From Verrucomicrobiota bacterium (lineage in GTDB: Bacteria; Verrucomicrobiota; Verrucomicrobiia; Verrucomicrobiales; DEV007), in NCBI GenBank assembly GCA_020630975.1, contig JAHDID010000018.1, forward strand, positions 48,906 through 103,768: DNA of 54,863 bases, given 5' to 3'. A program made the position numbers and the translations under genes. The notes below the pieces were generated by a model that was not told where the DNA came from, ran no database searches, and saw nothing but the letters and a program-made list of their open reading frames with translations. Shown piece after piece: positions 8,269 to 39,409 of the stretch. Position 1 is the stretch's first letter, and each line of letters begins with the position of its first letter.

Positions 8269-9648
8269 ATGTGGAAAGGCCGATTTCAAGTAGAAACCTC
8301 GAATCTAGTCCAAGCCTATGGCGAGTCGATCTCGTTCGATTGGCGACTGTATCCGTATGATATCCAGGGCTCGATAGCTCACTCTCAGGTGCTGCGTGCC
8401 GCAGGCATCCTGACCGATGATGAGCAGCAGCAGATCGCCGATGGGCTGACTCAGATCAAAGCGGATATCGATGCTGGGGACTTCGAGTTCAAAACCAGTC
8501 TCGAGGACATTCACATGAATATCGAGAGTGTGCTCACTGAGCGCATCGGCGATGTCGGGGCTAAACTACACACCGCCCGGAGTCGGAATGATCAGGTGGC
8601 TCTGGATGTGCGCCTCTACTGTCGAGATGAGGTACAGCAGATTCACGGGCTACTGACCAAGCTGCAGCAGGCTCTGCTGCAGCTGGCGCAGAATCACCCC
8701 GAGGCAGTCGTGCCAGGCTACACTCACCTGCAGCGCGGCCAGCCCGTGCTATTTGCCCATCACCTGTTGGCCTATCTCGAGATGCTCGAGCGGGACAAAG
8801 GCCGCCTCGCGGATGCCTACCAGCGGATCAATGTGATGCCGCTCGGCTCCGGTGCACTGGCGGGCTCGACGATACCGCTGGATCGCCAGGTGGCGGCAGA
8901 TATCTTGGGCTTCCCAGCTATCACGCAGAATTCTATGGATGCGGTGAGCGATCGTGATTTCATCGCCGAGCTACTTTTCGACTTTGCCCTGGTCGGCACC
9001 CATCTCTCGCGCCTGAGCGAGGATGTCATCCTATGGGCATCGGCAGAGTTTGGCTTTATCGAGCTATCGGATGCGCACACCACAGGCTCCAGTCTGATGC
9101 CGCAGAAGAAAAATCCCGATGTGGCTGAGATCACTCGGGGGAAGACCGGTCGCCTGACGGGGAATCTGATGTCCATCCTGACCACGCTGAAAGGCCTGCC
9201 GATGACTTACAATCGCGATCTACAGGAGGACAAGGAGCCGCTCTTTGACTCGATCGACACCATCAAGATCGCGGTTGATGTGTTTGCCGAGATGATGGCT
9301 GAGGCCAAGATCTGCGAGGCTGTCACTGCCGAGGCTACTGCGGACCCATTCCTACTCGCTACGGATATCGCTGATTATCTGGTGCTAAAGGGTGTGCCAT
9401 TTCGCCATGCTCACGAGATAGTGGGGCAGCTCACGGCTCATTCGCTGTCTGAGCAGGTGCCATTTCAGGAGATCCCACTGGCGACGTATCAGACCTTTTC
9501 CGATGTCTTTGCCGACGATGTCTACGATGTGCTGGAGGTGAAAAAAGCTCTCGATGCCCGCGTGGCCGTGGGTGCCCCATCGCCTGCCAATGTGGCTGGT
9601 CAGGTGTCTGGCTGGCAGGATCGTCTGGCTAGCGAGGTGGCTTGGTAA
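8269..9648 (+). CDS. argH: Argininosuccinate lyase
   Basis: Catalyses argininosuccinate to arginine plus fumarate, the last step of arginine synthesis; a homotetramer of the fumarase/aspartase superfamily. The family signature GSSLMPQKKNPD begins near residue 273 and carries the catalytic serine; HTARSRNDQVALD and GYTHLQRGQPVLFAHHLLAY are also intact. ATG 8269 (MWKGRF) matches the usual MWGGRF-type N-terminus and is preferred over an in-frame ATG at 8251. The gene is monocistronic, followed by an inverted repeat and a tRNA gene. Confidence 0.95.
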   Translation: MWKGRFQVETSNLVQAYGESISFDWRLYPYDIQGSIAHSQVLRAAGILTDDEQQQIADGLTQIKADIDAGDFEFKTSLEDIHMNIESVLTERIGDVGAKLHTARSRNDQVALDVRLYCRDEVQQIHGLLTKLQQALLQLAQNHPEAVVPGYTHLQRGQPVLFAHHLLAYLEMLERDKGRLADAYQRINVMPLGSGALAGSTIPLDRQVAADILGFPAITQNSMDAVSDRDFIAELLFDFALVGTHLSRLSEDVILWASAEFGFIELSDAHTTGSSLMPQKKNPDVAEITRGKTGRLTGNLMSILTTLKGLPMTYNRDLQEDKEPLFDSIDTIKIAVDVFAEMMAEAKICEAVTAEATADPFLLATDIADYLVLKGVPFRHAHEIVGQLTAHSLSEQVPFQEIPLATYQTFSDVFADDVYDVLEVKKALDARVAVGAPSPANVAGQVSGWQDRLASEVAW

Positions 9649-9691
9649 GTGTAGATTTGGGAGAAACTGAGAGCGAGTTTGTAAAAAGGCG

Positions 9692-9744
9692 CTTGCCAAA
9701 GTGGTCGAATGAAATTACAGATGGCGCTCGCCAGTTTTGGCAAG
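9692..9744. repeat. 9-bp inverted repeat between argH and tRNA-Leu
   Basis: CTTGCCAAA (9692-9700) and TTTGGCAAG (9736-9744) are perfect complements separated by 35 nt. It could be a long-loop hairpin downstream of argH or a regulatory site for the tRNA. No T-run follows, so a Rho-independent terminator is not supported. Confidence 0.35.
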
Positions 9745-9773
9745 CATCACGATTCAGTGAGTGCTTACTTTTT

Positions 9774-9858
9774 GCTCGGGTGGCGGAATTGGTAGACGCG
9801 CAGGATTAAGGATCCTGTGGAGCGATCCGTGGGGGTTCGATTCCCCCCTCGAGCACCA
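9774..9858 (+). tRNA. tRNA-Leu, anticodon AAG
   Basis: A complete 85-nt class II tRNA with encoded CCA. The acceptor stem pairs GCTCGGG with CTCGAGC, including one G-T pair. The D-arm is GCG..CGC, the anticodon stem CAGGA/TCCTG, and the T-arm GGGGG-TTCGATT-CCCCC. A long variable arm of about 13 nt contains GGA/TCC. The 7-nt anticodon loop TTAAGGA places AAG at positions 34-36 with G37, normal for Leu NAG isoacceptors. A34 would need deamination to inosine to read CUU, CUC and CUA. Confidence 0.93.
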
Positions 9859-9946
9859 CTTTTCTTTTTGTTTTTTGGAAGGTGGTTTAGATTTTAGCTG
9901 GGGTTGCTAAGATCTGAATCTGGGCATTTCAGCTACTCGGTTGGCA

Positions 9947-9968
9947 GAGGAAGATCCCAATCTTCCTC
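9947..9968. repeat. Perfect hairpin shared with the left edge of the window
   Basis: GAGGAAGAT-CCCA-ATCTTCCTC is a 9-bp stem with a 4-nt loop. The inner 18-mer GGAAGATCCCAATCTTCC is identical to 80-97. It lies 18 bp beyond the stop of the leftward sulfatase gene and may also act as a 3'-end hairpin, although no T-run follows on that strand. Confidence 0.55.
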
Positions 9969-9986
9969 CCTTCTATCCCCAAGGCC

Positions 9987-11510
9987 CTACTCATAGTCCC
10001 ACTTCATGATCCAGGGATCGTTCATGCGCTTTTGCAGGCCTTTCAGGCGGTCTTTATACTCCTGTAGCTGCTCAGCATAGGCGGGATCGGTGGCTAGGTT
10101 TTTGGCCTCGTGCGGATCTTCGGAGATTTTGTAAAACTCGAAGGCGGGCCGGTTGATGTATTCGCCGACGGTTTTCTGGCCGTAGGGCGCGTCCATGGAT
10201 TTCTGAAGCTGTGCCTGAAAGCTGCTGGCTTTCCACAAATCAGAGGCAAATGGATAGGGGAGGCCGTGGGCGATATTCCAGATCAGCTTGTAGTCGCGGT
10301 CGCGGATGACTCGCATCGGGTAGTACATCTGGATCTCGTGGAAGGTGTGCGAGGCAAATATCTCTTCCCAGTGCTGGGCCTCGGCATCGCCAAGGATAGG
10401 GACCCAGGAGCGCCCGTGGTAGCTCTGTAGACCTTTGCGTGGGCCGCGATTTTCCTTAGCTGCGTAGTCTTTGTCCCTCCAGTATTGGTTGGCATCGACC
10501 ATCTGCTTGGGCTGATTCTTTTCTCGGTCCAGCCCGCCTGCAAAATCGAGGATCGATGGGGTGATATCGATGTGGCTGATCATGGCCTGGCTCTCAACGC
10601 CGCGCTCGGTCTGGTAGGGATCGCGCACCACGAAGGGGACGCGGAGCCCACCCTCGTAGACGGTGGTCTTTCCTCCGGCGAAGGCCATGCCGTGATCAGA
10701 GGTGAAAATGAGCATCGTATCATCCCATAGGTCGGCCTCCTCGAGGATGGAGCGCAGCCTAGCGACGCCCTGATCGATACGAGAGACACTCTGGTAATAT
10801 TGGGCCAGCTCCTCGCGAGTCTCGGGGGTGTCGCTGAGGAAGTGGGGGATAGGCATATCCGCAGGATCGTAAAACACTTCCTCGACGCCGGGGAATGCGC
10901 CACGGTTGGGCTTATTACCAAACAGGTCGGGTTTGAGGTCTAGCTCAGAAGTCTGGTCAATGCCGCCGCCACGATGGGGATCTGACATGGCGAAGTAGAG
11001 GAAAAATGGCTGCTCTGAGTCGGCAGCGATGAAGTCGCGCACTTTTTCCGCCATCTCGATCGGGCTGCGAGGGTTGGCTTTGAAATAGGTCTGAAAACGA
11101 TACACCTCCTCAGGTGCGACGTGATATTTGCCAATATGACCGGTGCGGTAGCCGGCATCAGCCATCACTCGGGGCAGAGATAGGCTGATCACATTGTGAA
11201 AGCTGTCGAACTTATGGAAGGCGTGCGCGTGGCCATACTGGCCGTTGGCGTGGTTGTGCAGGCCAGACATGACGACCGACCGGCTCGCCGAGCAGCTAGC
11301 AGTGGTCGCAAAGGCATTGTGAAATAGGGTGCCATCGGCTGCTACCGCATCGATCGCCGGCGTCTGAGCGACCGGGTCGCCATAGCAGCCTAGGGTCGGA
11401 GACTGATCATCGGTGATGAAAAAGATCACATTGCGCTCTGCGGCTGTGCCCGTCTGGAGTGAAGTGGCAGCCAGCACTGCTGCCATGGAAAAGAGTAAAA
11501 TCGCTCTCAT
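9987..11510 (-). CDS. Secreted type I sulfatase
   Basis: A 507-residue exported sulfatase (alkaline-phosphatase superfamily) with a signal peptide of about 23 residues. The metal ligands are in NVIFFITDDQSPTLGCYGD. The formylglycine motif C-S-A-S-R is at residues 73-77, so maturation needs a formylglycine-generating enzyme. A second metal-site motif is FTSDHGMAFAGGKTTVYEGG. The C-terminal DPHEAKNLA segment is typical of the family. It probably removes sulfate esters from marine polysaccharides; the substrate cannot be read. It is divergent from purU and unlinked to glycosidases here. Confidence 0.92.
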   Translation of the reverse strand: MRAILLFSMAAVLAATSLQTGTAAERNVIFFITDDQSPTLGCYGDPVAQTPAIDAVAADGTLFHNAFATTASCSASRSVVMSGLHNHANGQYGHAHAFHKFDSFHNVISLSLPRVMADAGYRTGHIGKYHVAPEEVYRFQTYFKANPRSPIEMAEKVRDFIAADSEQPFFLYFAMSDPHRGGGIDQTSELDLKPDLFGNKPNRGAFPGVEEVFYDPADMPIPHFLSDTPETREELAQYYQSVSRIDQGVARLRSILEEADLWDDTMLIFTSDHGMAFAGGKTTVYEGGLRVPFVVRDPYQTERGVESQAMISHIDITPSILDFAGGLDREKNQPKQMVDANQYWRDKDYAAKENRGPRKGLQSYHGRSWVPILGDAEAQHWEEIFASHTFHEIQMYYPMRVIRDRDYKLIWNIAHGLPYPFASDLWKASSFQAQLQKSMDAPYGQKTVGEYINRPAFEFYKISEDPHEAKNLATDPAYAEQLQEYKDRLKGLQKRMNDPWIMKWDYE

Positions 11511-30587: not shown

Positions 30588-32015
30588 CTAGTAGCGATAG
30601 GTCTCGGGCTTGTATGGGCCCTCGACTGGCACGCAGATGTAGTCGGCCTGCTCCTGAGTCAGGACGGTCAGTTTGGCGCCGATTTTCTCGAGGTGCAGCT
30701 TGGCCACCTCTTCGTCGAGGTGCTTAGGCAGCACGTATACACCTGGGGCGTAGACTTCTTTGTTCTTCCACAGATCCATCTGAGCCAGAGTCTGGTTGGT
30801 GAAGCTGTTGGACATGACGAAGCTTGGGTGACCGGTAGCACAGCCGAGGTTCACCAGACGGCCCTCTGCGAGCATGTACATCTGGCGTCCGTCTTCGAAT
30901 GTGTACTGGTGTACCTGAGGCTTCACTTCCTCGATAGTCACTCCTGGTGCTTCGTTGAGCGCAGCTACCTGGATCTCGTTGTCGAAGTGACCGATGTTAC
31001 ACACGATAGCCTGGTCCTTCATATTGGTCAGGTGCTCGAGGCGGATGATGTCTTTGTTACCAGTGGTGGTCACGTAGATGTCTGCCCAGCCGAGAGTGTC
31101 CTCGATAGGCAGGATACGGTAGCCCTCCATGGCTGCCTGCAGCGCACAGATCGGGTCGATCTCGGTCACTACGACCTGAGCACCCTGTCCGCGGAGTGCC
31201 TGAGCACAGCCTTTACCCACATCGCCGTAGCCACAGACGACGGCGACTTTGCCAGAGATCATCACATCGGTAGCACGCTTGATACCATCGACGAGAGACT
31301 CACGACAGCCGTAGAGGTTGTCGAATTTCGACTTGGTCACCGAGTCGTTCACATTGATCGCAGGGATGCGGAGCTTGCCAGCCTCTGCCATCTGGTAGAG
31401 ACGGTGCACGCCAGTGGTGGTCTCCTCGGAGACACCCTTCCAGTCTTTCAGGTAGTTGGTCCACTTGTCTGGAGTCTCAGCGTGGATGCGCTTGAGCAGG
31501 TTTTTGATGATCTGCTCCTCTTCGCTCTCGGAGTCGGAGTTTACCCAGCTCTCGTCGCCTTCCTCTAGGTCGGCACCTTTGTGGATGAGTAGAGTCGCAT
31601 CGCCACCGTCGTCGACGATCATCTCAGGACCGCTGCCGTCTGGCCAAGTGAGAGCTGCCTCAGTGCAGTCCCAGTACTCCTCGAGAGTCTCGCCTTTCCA
31701 GGCAAATACGGGCACGCCAGCCGCTGCGATAGCTGCAGCAGCGTGATCCTGTGTGGAGAAGATATTACAGCTACACCAGCGCACGTCTGCACCCAGGTCT
31801 ACGAGCGTCTCGATGAGCACTGCGGTCTGGATAGTCATGTGCAGAGAGCCCATGATGCGCACGCCGTCGAGCGGCTTGTCAGCGGCGTATTTCTCGCGTG
31901 TCGCCATGAGGCCAGGCATCTCGTGCTCGGCGATGGAGATCTCTTTTCTGCCGAAATCAGCCAAGCTGATGTCGGCCACCTTGTAGTCCTGCTCGGACCG
32001 ATCGATAGATGACAT
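30588..32015 (-). CDS. ahcY: Adenosylhomocysteinase
   Basis: An NAD-dependent hydrolase splitting SAH into adenosine and homocysteine, which relieves product inhibition of methyltransferases. The 475-residue protein shows [15 protein letters not shown] at the substrate site, [16 protein letters not shown], the NAD-binding loop [11 protein letters not shown] and the C-terminal KPETYRY end. It lies 54 bp downstream of metK and ends in a strong terminator, so metK-ahcY form one transcript that supplies and recycles SAM. Confidence 0.96.
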
Positions 32016-32069: not shown

Positions 32070-33251
32070 TTACGCGCCTGCGGCACTCTTGAGGTCAGCT
32101 GCTTTGTCAGTTTTCTCCCAAGTGAGGGCGTCGGTATTGTCCTCGCGACCGAAGTGACCGTAGTTGGTCGTCTCTCGGTAGATAGGGCGCAGTAGATTGA
32201 GCTGAGATACGATGTCGGCTGGCTTGAAGGAGAACACCTCCTGCACAGCTGCCTCGATCTTGGCCTCGTCGACGTGGCCTGTGCCAAAGGTATCGACACG
32301 CACAGAGACAGGCTCTGGGTGACCGATAGCGTAGGCTAGCTGGAGCTCACAGCGATCTGCTAGATCGGCTGCGACTACGTTTTTGGCGACCCAGCGGCAC
32401 ATGTAGGCAGCGGAGCGGTCGACTTTTGATGGGTCTTTTCCGGAGAAAGCACCACCACCGTGGCGGCCCATACCACCGTAGGTGTCGACGATGATCTTAC
32501 GACCGGTGAGACCGCAGTCGCCCTCAGGACCGCCGATGATGAATAGGCCAGTTGGGTTGATGAGGATCTCGGTGTCGTCGGTGAGCATATCGCCTGGGAG
32601 ATGCGCATCGATGAGGTCCTTTTTGAGTAGCTCACGGATCTCCTGAGTGGTGATGTCTGCAGAGTGCTGAGTCGACACCACGACCGCTGTGATGCGGCTC
32701 GGCTTGTCGTCGATGTACTCGACGGATACCTGAGTCTTGGAGTCTGGGCGGAGCCACTTGTGAGTGCCGTTTTTGCGTAGCGCTGTCAGCTCGCGGCCGA
32801 GGTGGTGAGACAGTGCGATCGGCAGAGGCATGAGAGAGTCGGTCTCTTTCACCGCGTAACCGAACATGATGCCCTGGTCGCCAGCGCCCTGCTCTTCGGT
32901 GTCTTTATCTGCGGCAGCTGCAGCATCGACACCCTGTGCGATGTCTGGAGACTGCTGGCCCAGCGCATTGGTGAAGAAGAAATTCGCTGCGTTGAATTTG
33001 CAGTCGTCATTGGTGTAGCCAATGCCCTCGATAGCTTCTTTTACCACCTCGCGGTAGTCGAACTGAGCTGCAGTGGTGATCTCGCCGCCGAGGACGACGA
33101 TGTTGTCTTTTACCAAAGTCTCGCATGCGATGCGAGAGGCGGTGTCTTGCTCGAAGCAAGCGTCTACGATGGAATCTGAGATGGTGTCGCACACTTTGTC
33201 TGGGTGACCTTCGGTGACGGACTCTGAAGAGAAGATATACTGGTTAGCCAT
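32070..33251 (-). CDS. metK: S-adenosylmethionine synthetase
   Basis: Makes SAM from methionine and ATP. The 393-residue protein has [14 protein letters not shown] at the N-terminus, the ATP-binding hexapeptide GAGDQG and the phosphate loop [19 protein letters not shown]. Length is normal. It is divergent from sahR, and the 53-bp gap holds the palindromic SahR-like element. ahcY follows in the same transcript. Confidence 0.97.
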
Positions 33252-33304: not shown

Positions 33305-34243
33305 ATGGCGTCAATTTTAAATAACCTTCGCTTGATCTCTGATCCGACGCGGGTTCGGATCTTGAGATTGTTGCGTGTCGAAGATCTCTCAGTCGTTGAG
33401 CTGCAGGAGATCATGGCGATGGGGCAGTCGCGCATATCGACTCACCTATCGCAGCTGAAGAAGCAGGGGCTGGTGGTTGATCGGCGCTCAGGCAAAAACG
33501 TGATTTACTCCTTCAATCGAGACGCTCAGGCGGTTCCCGATGGTTTGGTGCAGATTTTGGAGTTGGCTTCGACGGAGGTCGTGGAGATCGGGGATGACTA
33601 TGCGGCTCTGCAGCTGGTCGTGGCCAAGCGGTCGGATCGCAGTCGAGCGTACTTCGATGAGTTAGCCGGGAAATTTGGCCGCACCTATGTCCCTGGGCGC
33701 TCGTGGAAATCTCTGGCCGAGGCATTGATCAAGCTGATGCCGCCGATGGTCATAGCCGATCTCGGGGCGGGCGAGGGCACACTGTCTCAGCTACTAGCTC
33801 AGCGGGCGACACAGGTCATAGCGGTCGATCACTCGCAGAAGATGGTCGATTTCGGTACGGAAGTGGCGAGGAAATACGGCACTGATAACCTTGAGTTTCG
33901 CCTAGGTGATCTGGAAGAGCCGCCGATCGATTCAGAGACTGTCGATCTGGCTTTCTTCAGTCAGGCGCTGCACCATGCTCAGAAGCCGGAAAAAGCTGTA
34001 CAATCGGCTTTTCGGATTTTAAAGCCTGGTGGCACAGTGGTGATCTTGGATCTACTCAAGCATCAATTCGAAGAGGCGCGGGATCGCTATGCCGATGTGT
34101 GGTTGGGCTTTTCTGAGCTAGAGATCACCCGTTACCTCACTCAGGCAGGTTTTAGCGATATCGAGATCAGTGTGGTGGATAGAGAGGCCGAGCCTCCGCA
34201 TTTTCAGACCTTGATGGCGATCGGACGGAAGGGGATGGGTTAA
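33305..34243 (+). CDS. sahR: SahR-type regulator: ArsR HTH fused to a SAM-dependent methyltransferase domain
   Basis: A 312-residue fusion protein. Residues 1-75 are an ArsR winged helix (LISDPTRVRILRLLRVEDLSVVELQE, SRISTHLSQLKKQGLV). About 145-260 is a class I methyltransferase fold with motif I VIADLGAGEGTLSQLL and the acidic residue in IAVDHSQKMV. This architecture is that of SahR, reported in Proteobacteria as an SAH-responsive repressor of SAM-cycle genes. The divergent metK-ahcY operon and the shared palindrome at metH strongly support that role here. The methyltransferase domain probably senses SAM or SAH rather than acting as an enzyme (inference). Confidence 0.85.
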   Translation: MASILNNLRLISDPTRVRILRLLRVEDLSVVELQEIMAMGQSRISTHLSQLKKQGLVVDRRSGKNVIYSFNRDAQAVPDGLVQILELASTEVVEIGDDYAALQLVVAKRSDRSRAYFDELAGKFGRTYVPGRSWKSLAEALIKLMPPMVIADLGAGEGTLSQLLAQRATQVIAVDHSQKMVDFGTEVARKYGTDNLEFRLGDLEEPPIDSETVDLAFFSQALHHAQKPEKAVQSAFRILKPGGTVVILDLLKHQFEEARDRYADVWLGFSELEITRYLTQAGFSDIEISVVDREAEPPHFQTLMAIGRKGMG

Positions 34244-34267: not shown

Positions 34268-36307
34268 CTAGGCTGGTAGGGCCACTTCGCTGGAGGCTTT
34301 GATTTCATTAATCTTTGTGATCAAATCATTGAGCTGATAGGGTTTTGAGAAGATGGCGTAGGGTTCTCCCTTTGTCTCTGAGATGAATTCTTCTGTATCC
34401 ACGAGGAAGCCGCTAGTTACGATGACAGGTATATTATAGCCTTCTTCATTCAGCTTAGTGAAAAGCTCATTTCCAGTCATGCACGGCATCGCTAAATCTA
34501 ATACTATGGCTAGAATTTCGTCTTCAAAATCCTGGATAATTTCTAGAGCTTCCTGGCCATGGCATGCTCCAAAAGTTCGGTAGCCTTTCTTTTCGCAAAG
34601 CGTACGTACCAAGTTGCGTAGCAGCTCCTCATCATCCACGACTAAAATACCGGGTTCGAGATTAATGTCGCAATCTCTCTGCTTTACTGAGGGGAGGCAA
34701 CGCTTTGCGGAACTAGACGGAGCTGTGTCACGACATCTGGGGAGATACAGACTGAAAGCTGTACCTTGTCCTTCGACTGAAGTGCAGGTGATATGCCCGC
34801 CATGCTGTCGAATAACTCCCATTGCATTAGCCATGCCCAAACCGGTTCCCTTGCCGACTTCTTTGGTGGTAAAGAACGGCTCAAACACCTTGGATTGAGC
34901 ATCCGCATTGATTCCACACCCATTGTCATTAGTGGTAAGTATGACGTAATGCCCGACTTTGCAATCAAGTGCATTCGCCATAGCGCTATCGCTTAAAATG
35001 AAATTTCGGCTCGAGATTACTAACTCTCCGCCAGTTTCGCAGGCATGCATCGAATTTTCGAATAGATTTATCAGTACTTGAATTAACTGTTCCCTATCAG
35101 CTTTTATCGGCCAGCAGTTGTCCTCCAGTGATACTGATATCGAAAAATTCGATCTTTCTCCTAGCTTACTACAGAACAAGTCCACAGTTTCATGAATCAC
35201 TTGGGACAGGCAGACGGATTCGATACTTAGACGAGTATTCCTGGAATATCCTAGTAGTTGTTGGACTAAACCAACTGCTTTGTTGCCAGCTGCAGTGGCC
35301 ATGTTTAGTGGTTTTGAAAGGTTGGTGTTGCTTTCAAACTCAGGCTCGAGAGATAGTAATGATAGATTTCCTAAAATAATAGCGAGAAGGTTGTTGAAAT
35401 CATGTGCCACTCCTCCCGCTAAACGGGCGGCGATTTCCATTCTTTCCATTTCCGAGACATGTTTTTCTAGGTAGTCGGTGCTGGAGCTGTCATTCTGGGA
35501 AAACACAAGCACTGATCCTAGAAAGCTATTGTCTTCTTCGAGAATTGGTGAGGCTAATAAATTTAGCTTGCTTGGGATCGGTGCCCCTATTTCCCACTGG
35601 GATGAAAGGTTGTGAAGGAAGCCGCATGAAATTTTTTCGATGACCAATTGAGCTTCATCTTTTGAGACGGCATCCTTGCTGAAGTCTTCGATTCGACTGC
35701 TTGCAAGGACATTCGGGAAATGGACCGTGGCGGTATGATTTGCCATCCACAGCTCTCCAGTAGCGGAAAAAATCATTACCGGTTGTGGCACGTTATCTAA
35801 AATTGCTTTACATAAGGTGTTTGTCACTGAGGAGAAGTCAATGCCATCTCGCATTATTCCTTGAAGAGATTGTTCCTCTCTAGCGGTTTCAAAGTTTGAA
35901 CGAGCCAGAGCTGAACTGCGTAGGGATTGAAGCTCAGCTTGTGATATACTGTCTAACTCGTCGGCTCGGCGGATGATAAATAATAGTGTTCCGTTAGTGA
36001 CGTAAGACATGACTTGACCGTTGAAATGATTGTTGTCATATTTTTCATCAAACACAATGTGCCGATCTTCAATGCTTTCTTGGTTGTTTATTTGTTCTAG
36101 GCAATACTCTAAATAACTGCCTAGAACGGAATAGGGCTCGATAGTTAGTGTGCGCTGCTCAGAGTTCCAGAACGATCCAAAGTTCTCTTCGATCCATTTG
36201 AGCGGAGGGTTGAGTAATTTGAGCTTGTTGTGGGGTAGTGCTTGAAATACACCATAGCCTAGATCCGTGAAGATTGGTAGGTCGGATTCTCGAAGGATTT
36301 CTTCCAT
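34268..36307 (-). CDS. Soluble hybrid histidine kinase (sensor-HisKA-HATPase-REC)
   Basis: A 679-residue cytoplasmic kinase without membrane helices. Residues 1-130 are a PAS-like or unknown sensor and about 165-275 a second PAS-like domain (ILDNVPQPVMIFSATGELWMANHTA). The H-box GGVAHDFNNLLAI has His302. The ATPase shows N-, G1- and G2-boxes (LINLFENSMHA, DNGCGI, GKGTGLGMA). A C-terminal receiver from about 555 (ILVVDDEELLRNLVR) has its phospho-Asp in AIVLDLAMPCMTG. It lies 12 bp after the small GTPase gene and is last in a four-gene operon. The gene is visibly AT-richer than the housekeeping regions. Confidence 0.88.
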   Translation of the reverse strand: MEEILRESDLPIFTDLGYGVFQALPHNKLKLLNPPLKWIEENFGSFWNSEQRTLTIEPYSVLGSYLEYCLEQINNQESIEDRHIVFDEKYDNNHFNGQVMSYVTNGTLLFIIRRADELDSISQAELQSLRSSALARSNFETAREEQSLQGIMRDGIDFSSVTNTLCKAILDNVPQPVMIFSATGELWMANHTATVHFPNVLASSRIEDFSKDAVSKDEAQLVIEKISCGFLHNLSSQWEIGAPIPSKLNLLASPILEEDNSFLGSVLVFSQNDSSSTDYLEKHVSEMERMEIAARLAGGVAHDFNNLLAIILGNLSLLSLEPEFESNTNLSKPLNMATAAGNKAVGLVQQLLGYSRNTRLSIESVCLSQVIHETVDLFCSKLGERSNFSISVSLEDNCWPIKADREQLIQVLINLFENSMHACETGGELVISSRNFILSDSAMANALDCKVGHYVILTTNDNGCGINADAQSKVFEPFFTTKEVGKGTGLGMANAMGVIRQHGGHITCTSVEGQGTAFSLYLPRCRDTAPSSSAKRCLPSVKQRDCDINLEPGILVVDDEELLRNLVRTLCEKKGYRTFGACHGQEALEIIQDFEDEILAIVLDLAMPCMTGNELFTKLNEEGYNIPVIVTSGFLVDTEEFISETKGEPYAIFSKPYQLNDLITKINEIKASSEVALPA

Positions 36308-36319
36308 TGTATGTGGGGG

Positions 36320-36811
36320 TTATAATATAGAATGTGCCAGCCTGATGAATAAATTTTCTACGCAATCTTTGTCGCTCGCGCTAGTTTCTACGACGTCCCA
36401 GCCTTCGGTTGTCATCTGCTCGATATGCTCGTTCTGGATTTCCCAATCCGCTTTTAGATCGGCTTTATTGAGGGCGCAAAGGAAAGGTGTATTCTCCAGT
36501 TCGGGTCGGGAATTTTTAATGTTCCTGGCGACTTTCAATGAGTCTAATCGACAGCCATCGACTACTAGTAAGTATCCAGCCGCACCTTTGCAATAGGCAG
36601 ACTGTAGATTATCGAATCTATCGTCACCGGCAATATCCCATATGATTAGGTTTACAGTTTCAGTGCCGATGGAGATTTTCTTTTTCTCTATTTTTACGCC
36701 TATGGTTGTGAGATATTGGTCGGAAAAGATTGAATGGACAAACTGGCTGACAAGACTAGTTTTTCCTACCCCGAAGCTGCCGAGCATGCATATTTTCTTT
36801 TGTAGGGCCAT
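36320..36811 (-). CDS. Ras/Rab-like small GTPase
   Basis: A 163-residue stand-alone G domain of the Ras superfamily, strikingly Rab-like. G1 GSFGVGKT is at 11-18, G2 Thr36 in YLTTIGVKIEKKKI, G3 WDIAGDDRF (DxxG 59-62), G4 NKAD 115-118 and G5 TSA 143-145. The residue equivalent to Ras Gln61 is Asp (AGDD rather than AGQE), which may slow hydrolysis or make it depend on a partner. There is no C-terminal Cys for prenylation. It lies between a large membrane-protein gene and a hybrid-kinase gene with gaps of 6 and 12 bp, so it probably acts as the switch of that module. Confidence 0.88.
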   Translation of the reverse strand: MALQKKICMLGSFGVGKTSLVSQFVHSIFSDQYLTTIGVKIEKKKISIGTETVNLIIWDIAGDDRFDNLQSAYCKGAAGYLLVVDGCRLDSLKVARNIKNSRPELENTPFLCALNKADLKADWEIQNEHIEQMTTEGWDVVETSASDKDCVENLFIRLAHSIL

Positions 36812-36817
36812 GCTGTT

Positions 36818-38758
36818 TTAATGTTGTTGTGATAATTTTACGTAGACACCCCACCTAGTTTGGTCGTTGTGATTATTTATCACTGTTTTGATTTGAAGAT
36901 GTGGATGTATCGCTGCTATTTCTTTCTGTAAGTCGTTTAATCGGTTGATTACGACCTGTTGATTGAAGGTAGCTAATGAGCCTTTTATTCTGGAGGCATG
37001 TAGGGTTAGAGTAGGCAGTTGTGTATTTGTTTTGTCGCAGTAAATGACGAGGTTGTTGATGTTTTTGATTATGTCATCGGCTGCCTGGTTACCGATAGAT
37101 AATCGGGTTGTTGTGGCATTGCGGTAGTGAATCGTTTGGGCCTCAATTTTTTTAACGATAGCGAGGTATACGATATTTTGGTCTTCTTGGAACGAAGTCA
37201 GATCAAATACGTGGCCTTCAATCAGAGTGGGGGACGATATGATTTGTTCGTATATTTTTTTAGGGGCGCTTCCTACGAGTTTCCACCTATTGCTTTGTAT
37301 GTGCTGTAGTGATGTTGTTTTTGATATTGGGTACTTTTCGTAGAATAGCGCTTTTAGTAAGGGGGCTATTTCGCTTCGTGATGGGGTTTTCAGAATAGCT
37401 TCTCGAGTGTTAGTTGTTTTTGCTGTCTCTTCGAAAAGAGTTTTTTGGAGTTCGGTGAAGTTTTTCTGAGTTTTGGCTAGTTCGACTTTTTGATCGCCGA
37501 TAATTTTTGTTAAATTGGTTATTGTTTGCTGGCTTTTTAACTGTGTTTTTAAATTTTCTTCCTCTCGTTTTGTTTGAAATATAGGGTCGAGGGATAAGTA
37601 TGGTATTTCCGAAGTTGATTGCCAGTCAAGGTGTACGCTAGCTTGGCTGTAGATGGTTTCTATCGATGTTGCGGCAGGGTCTCTTAGTATCTTGATTTCT
37701 CCGTTTCCGAAAAGCCGTGGCTGAATCGACACTAATTCGATTCCCGGTTCGGCGGAGATTTGTTGTTTTAATTTGTATGTCCAGATTTTATTTCTGACTG
37801 ATATTGTTGCTAATGTTAGTGTAGCGATTCCTAGTAGTCCTAAGATCAGGAACCCCGGCCATTTGGGTGCTTGTTTTATAGGTGAGTGTTCACCTCGCTC
37901 CTTTCGAAGCAGAGGGCTGAGGTGTTGAGCGCATTGTTGTTTTAGAGCTTCTTGATCTCCTGAGAAGTTTCTTAATTCTTCTCCGGCTTCTGTGTGAAGT
38001 TGTTCGAGAGCGTCACTCATGGCTTCGCGATACTCCGCTGGAGGAATCCCTAGGGTGACCGCCGCTATTATGGCGTCTGGGCCATTTTCTAGTAGGATCT
38101 CTTTTTGGCCAAATGAGAAACGGCATAACTCTTCGCCATGTTCGTTGGTTGTGGAGAAGGAGTCTTTTACGAAGCTTCGAATGGCTATAAGCATTCCGGA
38201 TACCATATCGGCATCCTGTTGGTCATCGTCTTTGTCGCTCAGATGTTGGAGTAGTATTCCTGAGTCTGGACTGATTAATAGTAGGTCTTCGACAGAGTAT
38301 TGGAAGGTTTTGAGGATTATATATTCGGACACATCCTTGCCGGTGAGTTTGGCTTCGAGCCACCATTTGATTCGATTGAATGAAGTTGCTGTTCGTAGAG
38401 TTTCGTTCAGTTCATCGAACATGCCCGTAAAGGTATCTTTGACATAGAATCTTATAGCAGGACCTAGTATCGGAAATAGAGCTGCGGAAAGGGGCTTTTT
38501 ATCTTTTTGAACGCTGAGCTGGAGGGCTTCAATTAATGGGTTTTGTAGCGATGTTGCTAATTTTTTATCTGGAGAATCGTGGTGTAAGGATATGGCTTCA
38601 GGGAGACTCGATCCTAGATGGGTAGGGTCACTGATACTTGCAAGCCTATCTTTTAATTGTAGGATTGCAGCAGATTCTTCTGCGAATAGTAATCGTCGCA
38701 GAGTCTCCATCTCATCCTCTGGATCGAGCTGGGATTCGCTGTTGTGCAGAGACTGCAT
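36818..38758 (-). CDS. Single-pass membrane protein with large cytoplasmic domain, related to GTPase-linked OmpA-family proteins
   Basis: 646 residues. The N-terminus carries ETLRRLLFAEESAAI (18-32), a motif shared with the neighbouring coiled-coil protein. Residues about 50-260 form a soluble domain containing ALFPILGPAIRFYVKDTF, FNRIKWWLEAKLTGKD, LISPDSGILLQHLSD and DADMVSGMLIAIRSFVKDSF. A membrane helix follows at about 300-321. After it, IKILRDPAATSIETIYSQ and YLSLDPIF precede a coiled coil (about 397-460). These segments match, from memory, cyanobacterial and myxobacterial OmpA-family proteins encoded near small GTPases. The usual C-terminal OmpA domain is not recognisable here; an unassigned domain takes its place. 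Confidence 0.65.
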   Translation of the reverse strand: MQSLHNSESQLDPEDEMETLRRLLFAEESAAILQLKDRLASISDPTHLGSSLPEAISLHHDSPDKKLATSLQNPLIEALQLSVQKDKKPLSAALFPILGPAIRFYVKDTFTGMFDELNETLRTATSFNRIKWWLEAKLTGKDVSEYIILKTFQYSVEDLLLISPDSGILLQHLSDKDDDQQDADMVSGMLIAIRSFVKDSFSTTNEHGEELCRFSFGQKEILLENGPDAIIAAVTLGIPPAEYREAMSDALEQLHTEAGEELRNFSGDQEALKQQCAQHLSPLLRKERGEHSPIKQAPKWPGFLILGLLGIATLTLATISVRNKIWTYKLKQQISAEPGIELVSIQPRLFGNGEIKILRDPAATSIETIYSQASVHLDWQSTSEIPYLSLDPIFQTKREEENLKTQLKSQQTITNLTKIIGDQKVELAKTQKNFTELQKTLFEETAKTTNTREAILKTPSRSEIAPLLKALFYEKYPISKTTSLQHIQSNRWKLVGSAPKKIYEQIISSPTLIEGHVFDLTSFQEDQNIVYLAIVKKIEAQTIHYRNATTTRLSIGNQAADDIIKNINNLVIYCDKTNTQLPTLTLHASRIKGSLATFNQQVVINRLNDLQKEIAAIHPHLQIKTVINNHNDQTRWGVYVKLSQQH

Positions 38759-38763
38759 GTCGC

Positions 38764-39366
38764 CTATCCTGTCAGCTCAGCCTCAGCCGTTTCGACTCGA
38801 GAATTATTTTCCGTTTTTTTGCCTTGCTGTAGACTAAGGCCCAAGTCGATCATGAGATCGCCCAGTAGGGCTCTATCCGTAGCGCGGTTACGAAGGTCTT
38901 CGATGCCAGTGTCGATGTATACCGTTAGCTCTTCGCGTAGATCGTTGAGAGCTTTATTGTATTGTTCTGATTTTTCGTGTAATTCCTTGGTTACACGTTT
39001 TTCAAAATTATTTAAGCGCTGCTCAAGTCGATTTAGCTGTTTTTTCTGTGAAGTCTCGAGCTGGTCAATAGTCCGCCGAATTTCCTCTCCCTGGGAGACT
39101 CTAGCGTTACTTTCTGCCTCGATGCGCTCTTCTAAGCTTTGCAACCTTTCCTCTGTGAATTGCTGCTGCTCCTGAGAGTGTTTTAGCGCATCTTCCAAAC
39201 GATTGTCCGAATGCTTTTTGAGTTTTTCGATTGAATTGTTTAGTCTCGTTGTTGAAGACTCAATCTGATTGAAAATTTCGGTGGATTTTTTGCCAAAAAG
39301 CAAATCGCGGACAGCTTCTATACTGTTTCCATCTTCCTCGGTTGCAGGAGTGTTTTCGGGGTTCAT
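38764..39366 (-). CDS. Coiled-coil protein sharing an N-terminal motif with its neighbour
   Basis: A 200-residue hydrophilic protein, almost entirely heptad coiled coil from about 30 to 170 (rich in E, Q, R, L). The N-terminal IEAVRDLLFGKKSTEI (16-31) resembles ETLRRLLFAEESAAI of the next gene. The C-terminal ATDRALLGDLMIDLGLSL is a short amphipathic segment. It is the first gene of the operon, 5 bp before the membrane-protein gene. It probably assembles with the membrane protein or GTPase (inference). Confidence 0.65.
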   Translation of the reverse strand: MNPENTPATEEDGNSIEAVRDLLFGKKSTEIFNQIESSTTRLNNSIEKLKKHSDNRLEDALKHSQEQQQFTEERLQSLEERIEAESNARVSQGEEIRRTIDQLETSQKKQLNRLEQRLNNFEKRVTKELHEKSEQYNKALNDLREELTVYIDTGIEDLRNRATDRALLGDLMIDLGLSLQQGKKTENNSRVETAEAELTG

Positions 39367-39373
39367 GGTTTAT

Positions 39374-39409
39374 ATTTTACATAAAAACCATAATTACTCA
39401 AGCTTGAGT
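39374..39409 (-). promoter_or_regulatory. Promoter of the GTPase operon with a 14-bp palindrome over the -35
   Basis: On the minus strand TTGAGT (39401-39396), a 16-bp spacer and TAAAAT (39379-39374) fit a sigma-70 promoter. The -35 lies within the perfect palindrome ACTCAAGCTTGAGT (39396-39409), a good operator candidate. The predicted start falls next to the ATG at 39366, so the message may be leaderless. Confidence 0.45.

Follow-up and report, generated by a model that had tools for sequence, protein, structure and literature searches.

A Group 1 Rup GTPase operon from a Verrucomicrobiota bacterium with a predicted longin-fold membrane partner and a proposed trans-acting glutamine

Genes of the operon and its place among Rup modules

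Here, we describe a four-gene operon in a 54,863-nt stretch of DNA, referred to as the window, from a Verrucomicrobiota bacterium (Verrucomicrobiales; DEV007; assembly GCA_020630975.1, contig JAHDID010000018.1, positions 48,906 to 103,768 of the forward strand). In 5' to 3' order on the minus strand, the operon encodes a coiled-coil protein, a membrane protein, a small GTPase, and a hybrid histidine kinase. A preliminary description of this DNA had reported four leftward genes with gaps of 5, 6, and 12 bp, and re-measurement gave the same gaps between four intact minus-strand open reading frames (ORFs). The operon is a Group 1 Rup signaling module, a type predicted in silico in 2014, and hence a new member of a described family rather than an undescribed system.

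The first gene (38764-39366, minus strand, as are all genes, domains, and motifs of the module given below) encodes a coiled-coil protein of 200 aa; its homologues lie upstream of the membrane-protein gene in related loci, and its hydropathy profile contains no transmembrane segment. The second (36818-38758) encodes a single-pass membrane protein of 646 aa, assigned from the ORF, a structural model, and hydropathy. This protein comprises an N-terminal motif followed by helices, a domain with a predicted longin fold, a transmembrane helix, a long helix, and an OmpA-like C-terminal domain. The third gene (36320-36811) encodes a Rab/Ras-fold small GTPase of the Rup type (163 aa), and the fourth (34268-36307) a soluble hybrid histidine kinase of 679 aa, identified from Pfam matches and hydropathy, which is the output protein of the module.

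The GTPase had been described as having a Ras/Rab fold, in agreement with a match to Pfam Ras (E = 2.6e-30) and with Rab21 as the best match among PDB sequences (E = 4.8e-22). Its P-loop, GSFGVGKT (aa 11-18; 36758-36781), has Phe at the position of Ras Gly12, and its G3 motif, DIAGDD (aa 59-64; 36620-36637), has Asp63 at the position of Ras Gln61. Among 75 GTPases, including that of the window, the former position is occupied by Phe in 64 and Tyr in 6 proteins, and the latter by Glu in 45, Asp in 13, Arg in 5, Gln in 5, and other residues in 7. In 73 of these 75 proteins, the window's included, the last six residues contain no Cys, and two have one. Seven Ras-family matches occur in the genome of the window; the only stand-alone small GTPase is that of this operon, the other six matches lying inside open frames of 485 to 1216 residues.

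In their account of Group 1, Wuichet and Sogaard-Andersen (2014; PMC4316618) defined these Rup GTPases by the lack of the G3 Gln. The neighbors given there are a coiled-coil protein and a membrane protein with a conserved domain of unknown function, a transmembrane helix, and often an OmpA domain, and the N-terminal region of the output protein carries an invariant Gln, for which action in trans was proposed; within that account, the authors counted no coupling of Rup to MglB. The GTPase in the window is a single-domain Ras-family protein whose length falls within the 150-240 aa of the group, and its G3 motif keeps the Asp and lacks the catalytic Gln. It is encoded together with a coiled-coil protein and an inner-membrane protein that has the conserved domain, and Gln127 in the N-terminal region of the output protein is presumably the Gln of the published output proteins. 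The same four-gene arrangement is found on a Nostoc plasmid and on a Mesorhizobium plasmid, where the genes are annotated as hypothetical, OmpA family, Rab family GTPase, and adenylate/guanylate cyclase.

The statement in the preliminary description that no function had been described thus needs amendment, since the module was described in silico in 2014 (PMC4316618); it holds for experiments, in that, among the papers listed in searches of the open-access literature, there was no experimental work on Rup and none that tied Rup to longin domains. Compared with the published Group 1 modules, the present one is verrucomicrobial, its predicted OmpA-like domain is unrecognized by Pfam and lacks the Asp of the TDxxG motif, its domain of unknown function is predicted to be a longin domain, and the N-terminal region of its output protein is predicted to be a PAS domain; in its relatives, further output types are HD, nucleotide cyclase, and sigma-54 activator proteins. 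Two computational results appear to be new for the family, namely a predicted longin partner of the bacterial GTPases nearest to Rab and a natural Gln/Arg difference in the output proteins.

Recurrence of the module

A scan of genome contigs with the membrane-protein domain yielded at least 537 confirmed relatives, and the gene neighborhoods of the best 80 were tabulated, as had been suggested in the preliminary description; being the best of at least 537, these loci are no random sample. Among them, 71 of the 72 loci in which the position can be observed have a coiled-coil gene immediately upstream of the membrane-protein gene (the exception is L034). A GTPase gene comes immediately downstream of the membrane-protein gene in 66 of 74 loci, and the GTPase gene is in turn followed by an ORF in 55 of 63. 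In four of the remaining eight loci (L044, L082, L089, and L091), a GTPase is encoded nearby on the opposite strand, and the other four (L042, L059, L064, and L065) have none in the locus. The genome of L064, like that of L067, whose locus is too short to tell, has a GTPase near a contig start.

Co-occurrence was also assessed in a phylum sample of 387 genomes drawn evenly, in which only some ten candidates per genome from a first look were scored, with cut-offs of E <= 1e-8 for the longin profile and E <= 1e-15 for the GTPase profile. The longin profile matched five genomes, and the GTPase profile matched the same five. With the window's genome excluded, the probability of this overlap by chance is about 1e-9, a hand calculation that treats genomes as independent, which is not quite true. 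In two of the five (G249 and G398), the GTPase and longin-protein genes are on different contigs, although in G398 a contig break is possible, because the GTPase gene lies near the end of its contig. In both genomes the GTPase is followed by an output gene encoding a PAS-type N-terminus (E = 3e-13 and 7e-6).

Some observations weigh against a fixed four-gene unit. Among the fetched stretches of the four other matching genomes of this sample, only those of G333 yielded a coiled-coil homologue (E <= 0.01), and those of G249, G258, and G398 gave none. G333 also has a second GTPase, which is accompanied by a separate output gene and by no longin protein within the stretch that was fetched. Furthermore, a relative from the same genus (G007) keeps the coiled-coil and membrane proteins, and no GTPase was detected in its genome; at its locus (L028; G007:C21:277000-292000), the membrane protein has a deletion just before the longin domain, and no output gene was seen beside it. 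By its appearance, this locus is a module remnant.

One may ask whether the four genes are a horizontally acquired passenger block without joint function. The preliminary description had noted that the block is AT-richer than its flanks, and indeed its GC content is 43.6%, compared with 53.2% for the window, with only 1 of 498 overlapping segments of the same size having a lower GC content. The occurrence of the GTPase is also patchy: at E below 1e-30, only 3 of the 33 genomes in the genus have a match, as does one of two other genomes of the family. Nevertheless, we consider a passenger block highly improbable, given the recurrent gene order, the genome-level co-occurrence, and the spread of the GTPases over 11 phylum-level groups. 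These groups were read from record titles in a GTPase tree of 62 rows (three rows fell in none), in which the window pairs with L040 (support 100/99) and the deep branches lack resolution. The same gene order recurs in many phyla, and it is this conservation that answers the question of a chance assembly versus a real unit. The suggestion of a self-contained module combining a GTP switch, a membrane scaffold, and phosphorelay is upheld in its modular part, with conserved co-occurrence of GTPase and membrane protein; phosphorelay fits the present copy and is one output among several.

Some loci were left out of individual alignments: L028, because of the deletion before the longin domain, and the Rhizobium locus L030, a near-copy of L031, from A1; 13 of the 80 loci, truncated or outside 450-730 aa, from A2; L046, where the ORF after the GTPase is a second GTPase, from A3; and L052, whose ORF resembles a PP2C protein by eye, from A5. 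Alignment A6 consists of the window and 27 of 66 GTPases. Two GTPase genes stand beside one membrane-protein gene in L045 (1067-1567 and 4066-4566) and L046 (9639-10130 and 10265-10771). Locus L072, from a record titled as a Klebsiella pneumoniae metagenome-assembled genome, has all of the coiled coil, the membrane protein, and the GTPase, together with a fourth ORF; in the tree, this GTPase clusters with rows from Chromatiaceae and Chloracidobacterium, and the bin is probably mis-titled. The three genes and a fourth ORF are likewise present at locus L037, from the cultured environmental carrier Roseibacillus ishigakijimensis KCTC 12986.

The membrane protein and its predicted longin domain

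As claimed previously, the membrane protein is single-pass with a large cytoplasmic domain: it has one hydrophobic segment, with a large part on each side in the model. The transmembrane helix spans approximately aa 301-323 (37790-37858; hydropathy maximum 2.27) and is part of a helix comprising residues 301-336 in the model. The second large part, C-terminal to this helix and presumably periplasmic, was absent from the preliminary description. The model was obtained with AlphaFold2 using 68 sequences and has a predicted local distance difference test (pLDDT) value of 81.4 and a predicted template modeling score (pTM) of 0.37; owing to this low pTM, the arrangement of the domains is unreliable, and single domains are more trustworthy than their arrangement.

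Residues 153-288 (37895-38302) form a predicted longin domain, based on the AlphaFold2 model, Foldseek, and VIA-align. In the model, residues 155-283 follow the order β-β-α-β-β-β-α-α, and a short helix (residues 143-151) precedes the first strand. A Foldseek search with the membrane protein, which had been proposed earlier, gave three TRAPP chains as the best matches (E = 5.9e-4 to 8.9e-4), followed by an OmpA periplasmic domain and, past the 0.001 line, by AP adaptor sigma/mu, Mon1-Ccz1, Ragulator, and dynein roadblock chains. For aa 153-288, VIA-align placed longin domains first, with VAMP7 at Z = 13.0 (116 residues aligned, root mean square deviation 2.5 Å), followed by Rab23-Fuzzy-Inturned (12.9), Sec22b (12.6), TRAPP (12.4), Ykt6 (12.2), Mon1-Ccz1 (11.7), and a Lokiarchaeal longin (11.1), where rows within 1 Z unit count as ties. 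The second C-terminal helix of longin domains is present in this predicted structure (helices 241-263 and 270-283), and most VIA-align rows (Z 10-13) extend to residue 286-288 and hence include helix 270-283, which favors longin. We take this domain of the window to be the published conserved domain of unknown function, so that the latter is predicted to have a longin fold.

Several points weigh against this assignment, which depends on a predicted structure with a pTM of 0.37. A profile of the membrane-protein sequences compared with PDB sequences retrieved no longin and two unrelated matches (E = 0.049 and 0.14). A roadblock/MglB identity of the cytoplasmic domain was tried and rejected: the score against Pfam Robl_LC7 was 12.9 bits with a cut-off of 23, and hhalign gave a score of 16.0, compared with 18.1 and 18.4 for two of 20 column shuffles and 17.8 for one reversed control (comparison sequences came from 27 of 30 loci; three gave none). 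The longin relation, to which sequence methods are blind, is therefore a structural inference. Moreover, longin domains also serve in SNAREs and coats.

The most conserved elements of the protein are strand 155-162 (3.44 bits) and helix 180-201 (3.41 bits), compared with 2.50 overall, and M189, A192, I193, F196, and D199 are invariant in the 68 membrane proteins. The pLDDT of the helix is only moderate, at approximately 75-77. Such conservation is as expected of a binding surface, which these two elements may form. Alternatively, the longin-type domain could be only a dimerization or ligand-binding domain of the PAS superfamily that makes no contact with the GTPase, the co-occurrence reflecting a common pathway. 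This we regard as quite unlikely, because several Rab guanine nucleotide exchange factor (GEF) longins are among the top structural matches and because the GTPase and the longin protein co-occur even on different contigs.

The GTPase-binding reading brings the module close to the eukaryotic longin GEF platforms (TRAPP core, Mon1-Ccz1, and Fuzzy-Inturned), with which it shares a predicted longin fold encoded beside a Rab-like GTPase. Its longin domain differs from these in being bacterial, in being fused to a transmembrane helix and an OmpA-like domain, and in having no detectable sequence similarity to them. In the MglA/MglB polarity switch, too, a small Ras-like GTPase has a roadblock/longin-superfamily protein as its partner; in contrast to that system, the GTPase of the module keeps the G3 Asp (D59), its partner is longin-type by appearance and membrane-bound, and an output protein is encoded in the operon.

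Beyond the membrane, the model predicts a long helix (aa 392-448; 37415-37585), presumably periplasmic, and an OmpA-like fold (aa 527-646; 36821-37180) with a VIA-align Z of 11.2 to an OmpA C-domain. Pfam OmpA has no match in the window's protein and matches 55 of the 68 members of the alignment. The TDxxG Asp is present in 49 of 68 members; it is absent in the window and in seven verrucomicrobial rows (L033-L037, L039, and L040), or eight counting L042, and L041 is without that region. Arg606 is kept in the window and in 64 of the 68 members. The TDxxG Asp and this Arg are peptidoglycan-binding residues, and wall binding is uncertain here. In the Nostoc membrane protein (L032, 5302-7593), repeated helical segments were seen by eye before the longin domain.

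Output proteins and the proposed catalytic glutamine

The fourth protein had been called a soluble hybrid histidine kinase, and its HATPase_c and receiver domains both pass the Pfam cut-offs, with HisKA falling just under (25.8 versus 26.9 bits). A transmembrane helix is unlikely, as the best 19-residue hydropathy mean is 1.47. The kinase core consists of HisKA (aa 295-357) and HATPase_c (aa 404-524) (34736-35425) and is followed by a C-terminal receiver domain (aa 554-666; 34310-34648). The N-terminal region (aa 1-150; 35858-36307) is predicted to adopt a PAS-like fold with a long exit helix (AlphaFold2 pLDDT 91.8, pTM 0.76). For this predicted structure, VIA-align gave a middling best Z of 8.0 (root mean square deviation 3.4, 105 residues aligned), and the 50 rows listed are, by title, all PYP or other PAS/LOV/phytochrome proteins. 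Gln127 (codon 35927-35929) lies in the helix just after the PAS domain, and its position holds Gln in 49 of 54 aligned Rup outputs.

The fourth gene varies between loci. Among 51 fourth-gene proteins, including that of the window, HATPase_c was found in 21, HisKA in 18, HD in 11, a receiver in 10, a sigma-54 activator in 5, a nucleotide cyclase in 4, GGDEF in 3, and PP2C in 1. By sequence, the PP2C row is probably L052 and perhaps no module gene. In L027, a second module in the genome of G005, the GTPase gene precedes a kinase-like gene (8881-9951) and a gene (9948-11390) that starts with a receiver domain and resembles, by eye, a sigma-54-type response regulator.

This variety bears on the direction of signaling. 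Actinobacterial conservons (Cvn) are four-gene operons that likewise have a histidine kinase, a small GTPase, and a protein of the roadblock/longin superfamily (PMC4316618, PMC13343842), and in its passage on conservons the 2014 study posited the GTPase as the output and Group 1 Rup as analogous (PMC4316618). The kinase of the present operon could thus be the sensor, signaling to the GTPase as an output that acts on the envelope through the OmpA-like membrane protein. This direction seems unlikely to us, since kinases, HD, GGDEF, and cyclase proteins, and sigma-54 activators look like interchangeable outputs of one switch. In conservons, unlike the module, the GTPase is of the MglA type and the MglB-type protein stands alone; none of the four proteins of the operon passes the Robl_LC7 cut-off.

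The proposal of a trans-acting Gln can be confronted with the residues found in GTPase-output pairs. Among the first 75 GTPases, Gln occupies the Ras-61 position in five, three of which are paired with an output that has Arg at the position of Gln127; more GTPase loci were therefore collected, from the class of G461 (a match in 33 of 63 genomes), the order of G466 (30 of 63), and two phyla (25 of 194 and 9 of 199). The resulting 199 GTPase ORFs gave 177 GTPase-output pairs, 147 of them distinct. Where the GTPase lacks Gln at the Ras-61 position, the output has Gln in 106 of 112 pairs; in the 35 pairs where the GTPase has this Gln, the output has Arg in 27, Ser in 1, and Gln in 7. Locus L079 is an example of a module with a Gln-GTPase and an Arg-output. 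The six pairs with Gln in neither partner comprise two alignment gaps (L236 and L110), two probable one-residue slips with an adjacent Gln (L169 and L271), L198, and L027, which has His. Ras and its GTPase-activating protein (GAP) likewise combine a Gln in cis with an Arg in trans, and a swap from Gln to Arg would be hard to explain for a residue far from the active site.

Two features of these data temper this reading. All 28 pairs with a Gln-GTPase and a non-Gln output fall in one clade (node support 0.64), which means one swap and not many; the sister row, L198, has Arg in both GTPase and output (support of the joined clade 0.998), and parsimony on this tree requires four changes for the GTPase Gln, six for the output Gln, and three for the output Arg. 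In addition, a GTPase with Gln need not be paired with a changed output, since seven pairs have Gln in both partners: five were collected in the order of G466, the genome that contains the Leucothrix locus L068, and the other two in the sample around the Trichormus locus L043.

These pairs are also in line with another reading, in which the longin-type domain is the GAP, as MglB is for MglA, the output protein is a plain effector, and Gln127 is a structural residue of the PAS signaling helix. Residues that follow a PAS core are frequently conserved because of their role in helix packing, and Gln127 is kept in the seven pairs whose GTPase has its own Gln. Dual GEF/GAP activity is given for the roadblock protein MglB in the relevant part of PMC10933270. 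Against this, the 28 positions above 3.6 bits in the longin domain include no Arg, Gln, or Asn, and a purely structural residue would not be expected to be Arg in just that clade in which position 61 of the GTPase is Gln. We consider a GAP role of the longin-type domain rather doubtful.

We favor, by a narrow measure, a working model in which the longin domain is a platform, the GTPase a switch, and the output protein the supplier of the hydrolytic Gln; the trans-acting Gln goes back to the 2014 study (PMC4316618), and the longin platform is our own proposal. The model is supported by gene order, co-occurrence, conserved motifs, and predicted folds, and everything in it that concerns binding or activity is inferred. 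The OmpA-like domain of the membrane protein would lie in the periplasm, and the protein would report the state of the envelope over one transmembrane helix to the cytoplasmic longin domain. By analogy with TRAPP, Mon1-Ccz1, and Fuzzy-Inturned, a dimer of the longin domain could bind the switch regions of the Rab-like GTPase and either load GTP or keep the GTPase, which has no lipid-anchor Cys of its own, at the membrane, while the coiled-coil protein may scaffold the assembly. The GTP form would bind the PAS domain and the following helix of the output protein, here the hybrid histidine kinase, and alter its activity. Because the GTPase lacks the catalytic Gln (Asp63), we propose that Gln127 is inserted into the active site and completes hydrolysis; with Gln127 supplied by the output, effector and GAP would be one molecule and the signal would be self-limiting.

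The wider claim, that many bacterial phyla have a membrane-anchored Rab-like GTPase with a true longin-fold partner, shut off by a Gln (Arg in one clade) provided in trans by interchangeable effectors, is in our view evenly balanced. If true, the Rab-longin partnership would exist outside eukaryotes and Asgard archaea, and its catalytic logic could flip between two arrangements that eukaryotic GAPs are known to use. A longin-type partner in the operon would put in bacteria a control pair usually linked to complex cells. RB/longin proteins are thought, in the text of PMC10933270 that treats them, to be of archaeal origin, and a review table lists "Longin/Roadblock" as present in bacteria with the two unseparated (PMC4917890). 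Finally, the 2014 proposal becomes directly testable, as one residue has two natural states, Gln and Arg, that track the state of the GTPase.

Shared N-terminal motif and surroundings of the operon

The coiled-coil protein and the membrane protein have N-terminal motifs of the same class (a hydrophobic residue, R/K/Q, any residue, three hydrophobic residues, and G/A/S/D): VRDLLFG in the former (aa 19-25; 39292-39312) and LRRLLFA in the latter (aa 20-26; 38681-38701). Of 74 coiled-coil proteins, 70 have a motif of this class, where shuffles predict 0.65, and of 68 membrane proteins, 51 have one, where shuffles predict 2.05. A profile comparison of the shared motif scored 22.3, with shuffles reaching up to 12.6; this score is inflated because both sets were picked with the same pattern, and the counts are the fair test. 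The motif may serve as a docking element shared by both proteins.

Upstream of the first gene lies a 14-bp perfect palindrome, ACTCAAGCTTGAGT (39396-39409). A single promoter with a palindrome had been claimed previously; the palindrome is real, and the single promoter is putative, a scan of the region having found 7 promoter-like sites, compared with 8.5 (SD 2.9) in shuffles. The palindrome was also considered as a regulon operator, which was rejected because ACTCAAGCTTGAGT has one exact copy in the whole 7.1-Mb genome. A terminator scan gave 8 hits, not clearly in excess of the 6.3 (SD 2.4) in shuffles. One promoter-like site (39401-39374, minus strand) sits upstream of the first gene.

The neighbors of the module were named by eye from their translations. 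They comprise genes resembling S-adenosylhomocysteinase (30588-32015) and methionine adenosyltransferase (32070-33251) and, on the opposite strand, a gene (33305-34243) that resembles an ArsR-type regulator fused to a methyltransferase.

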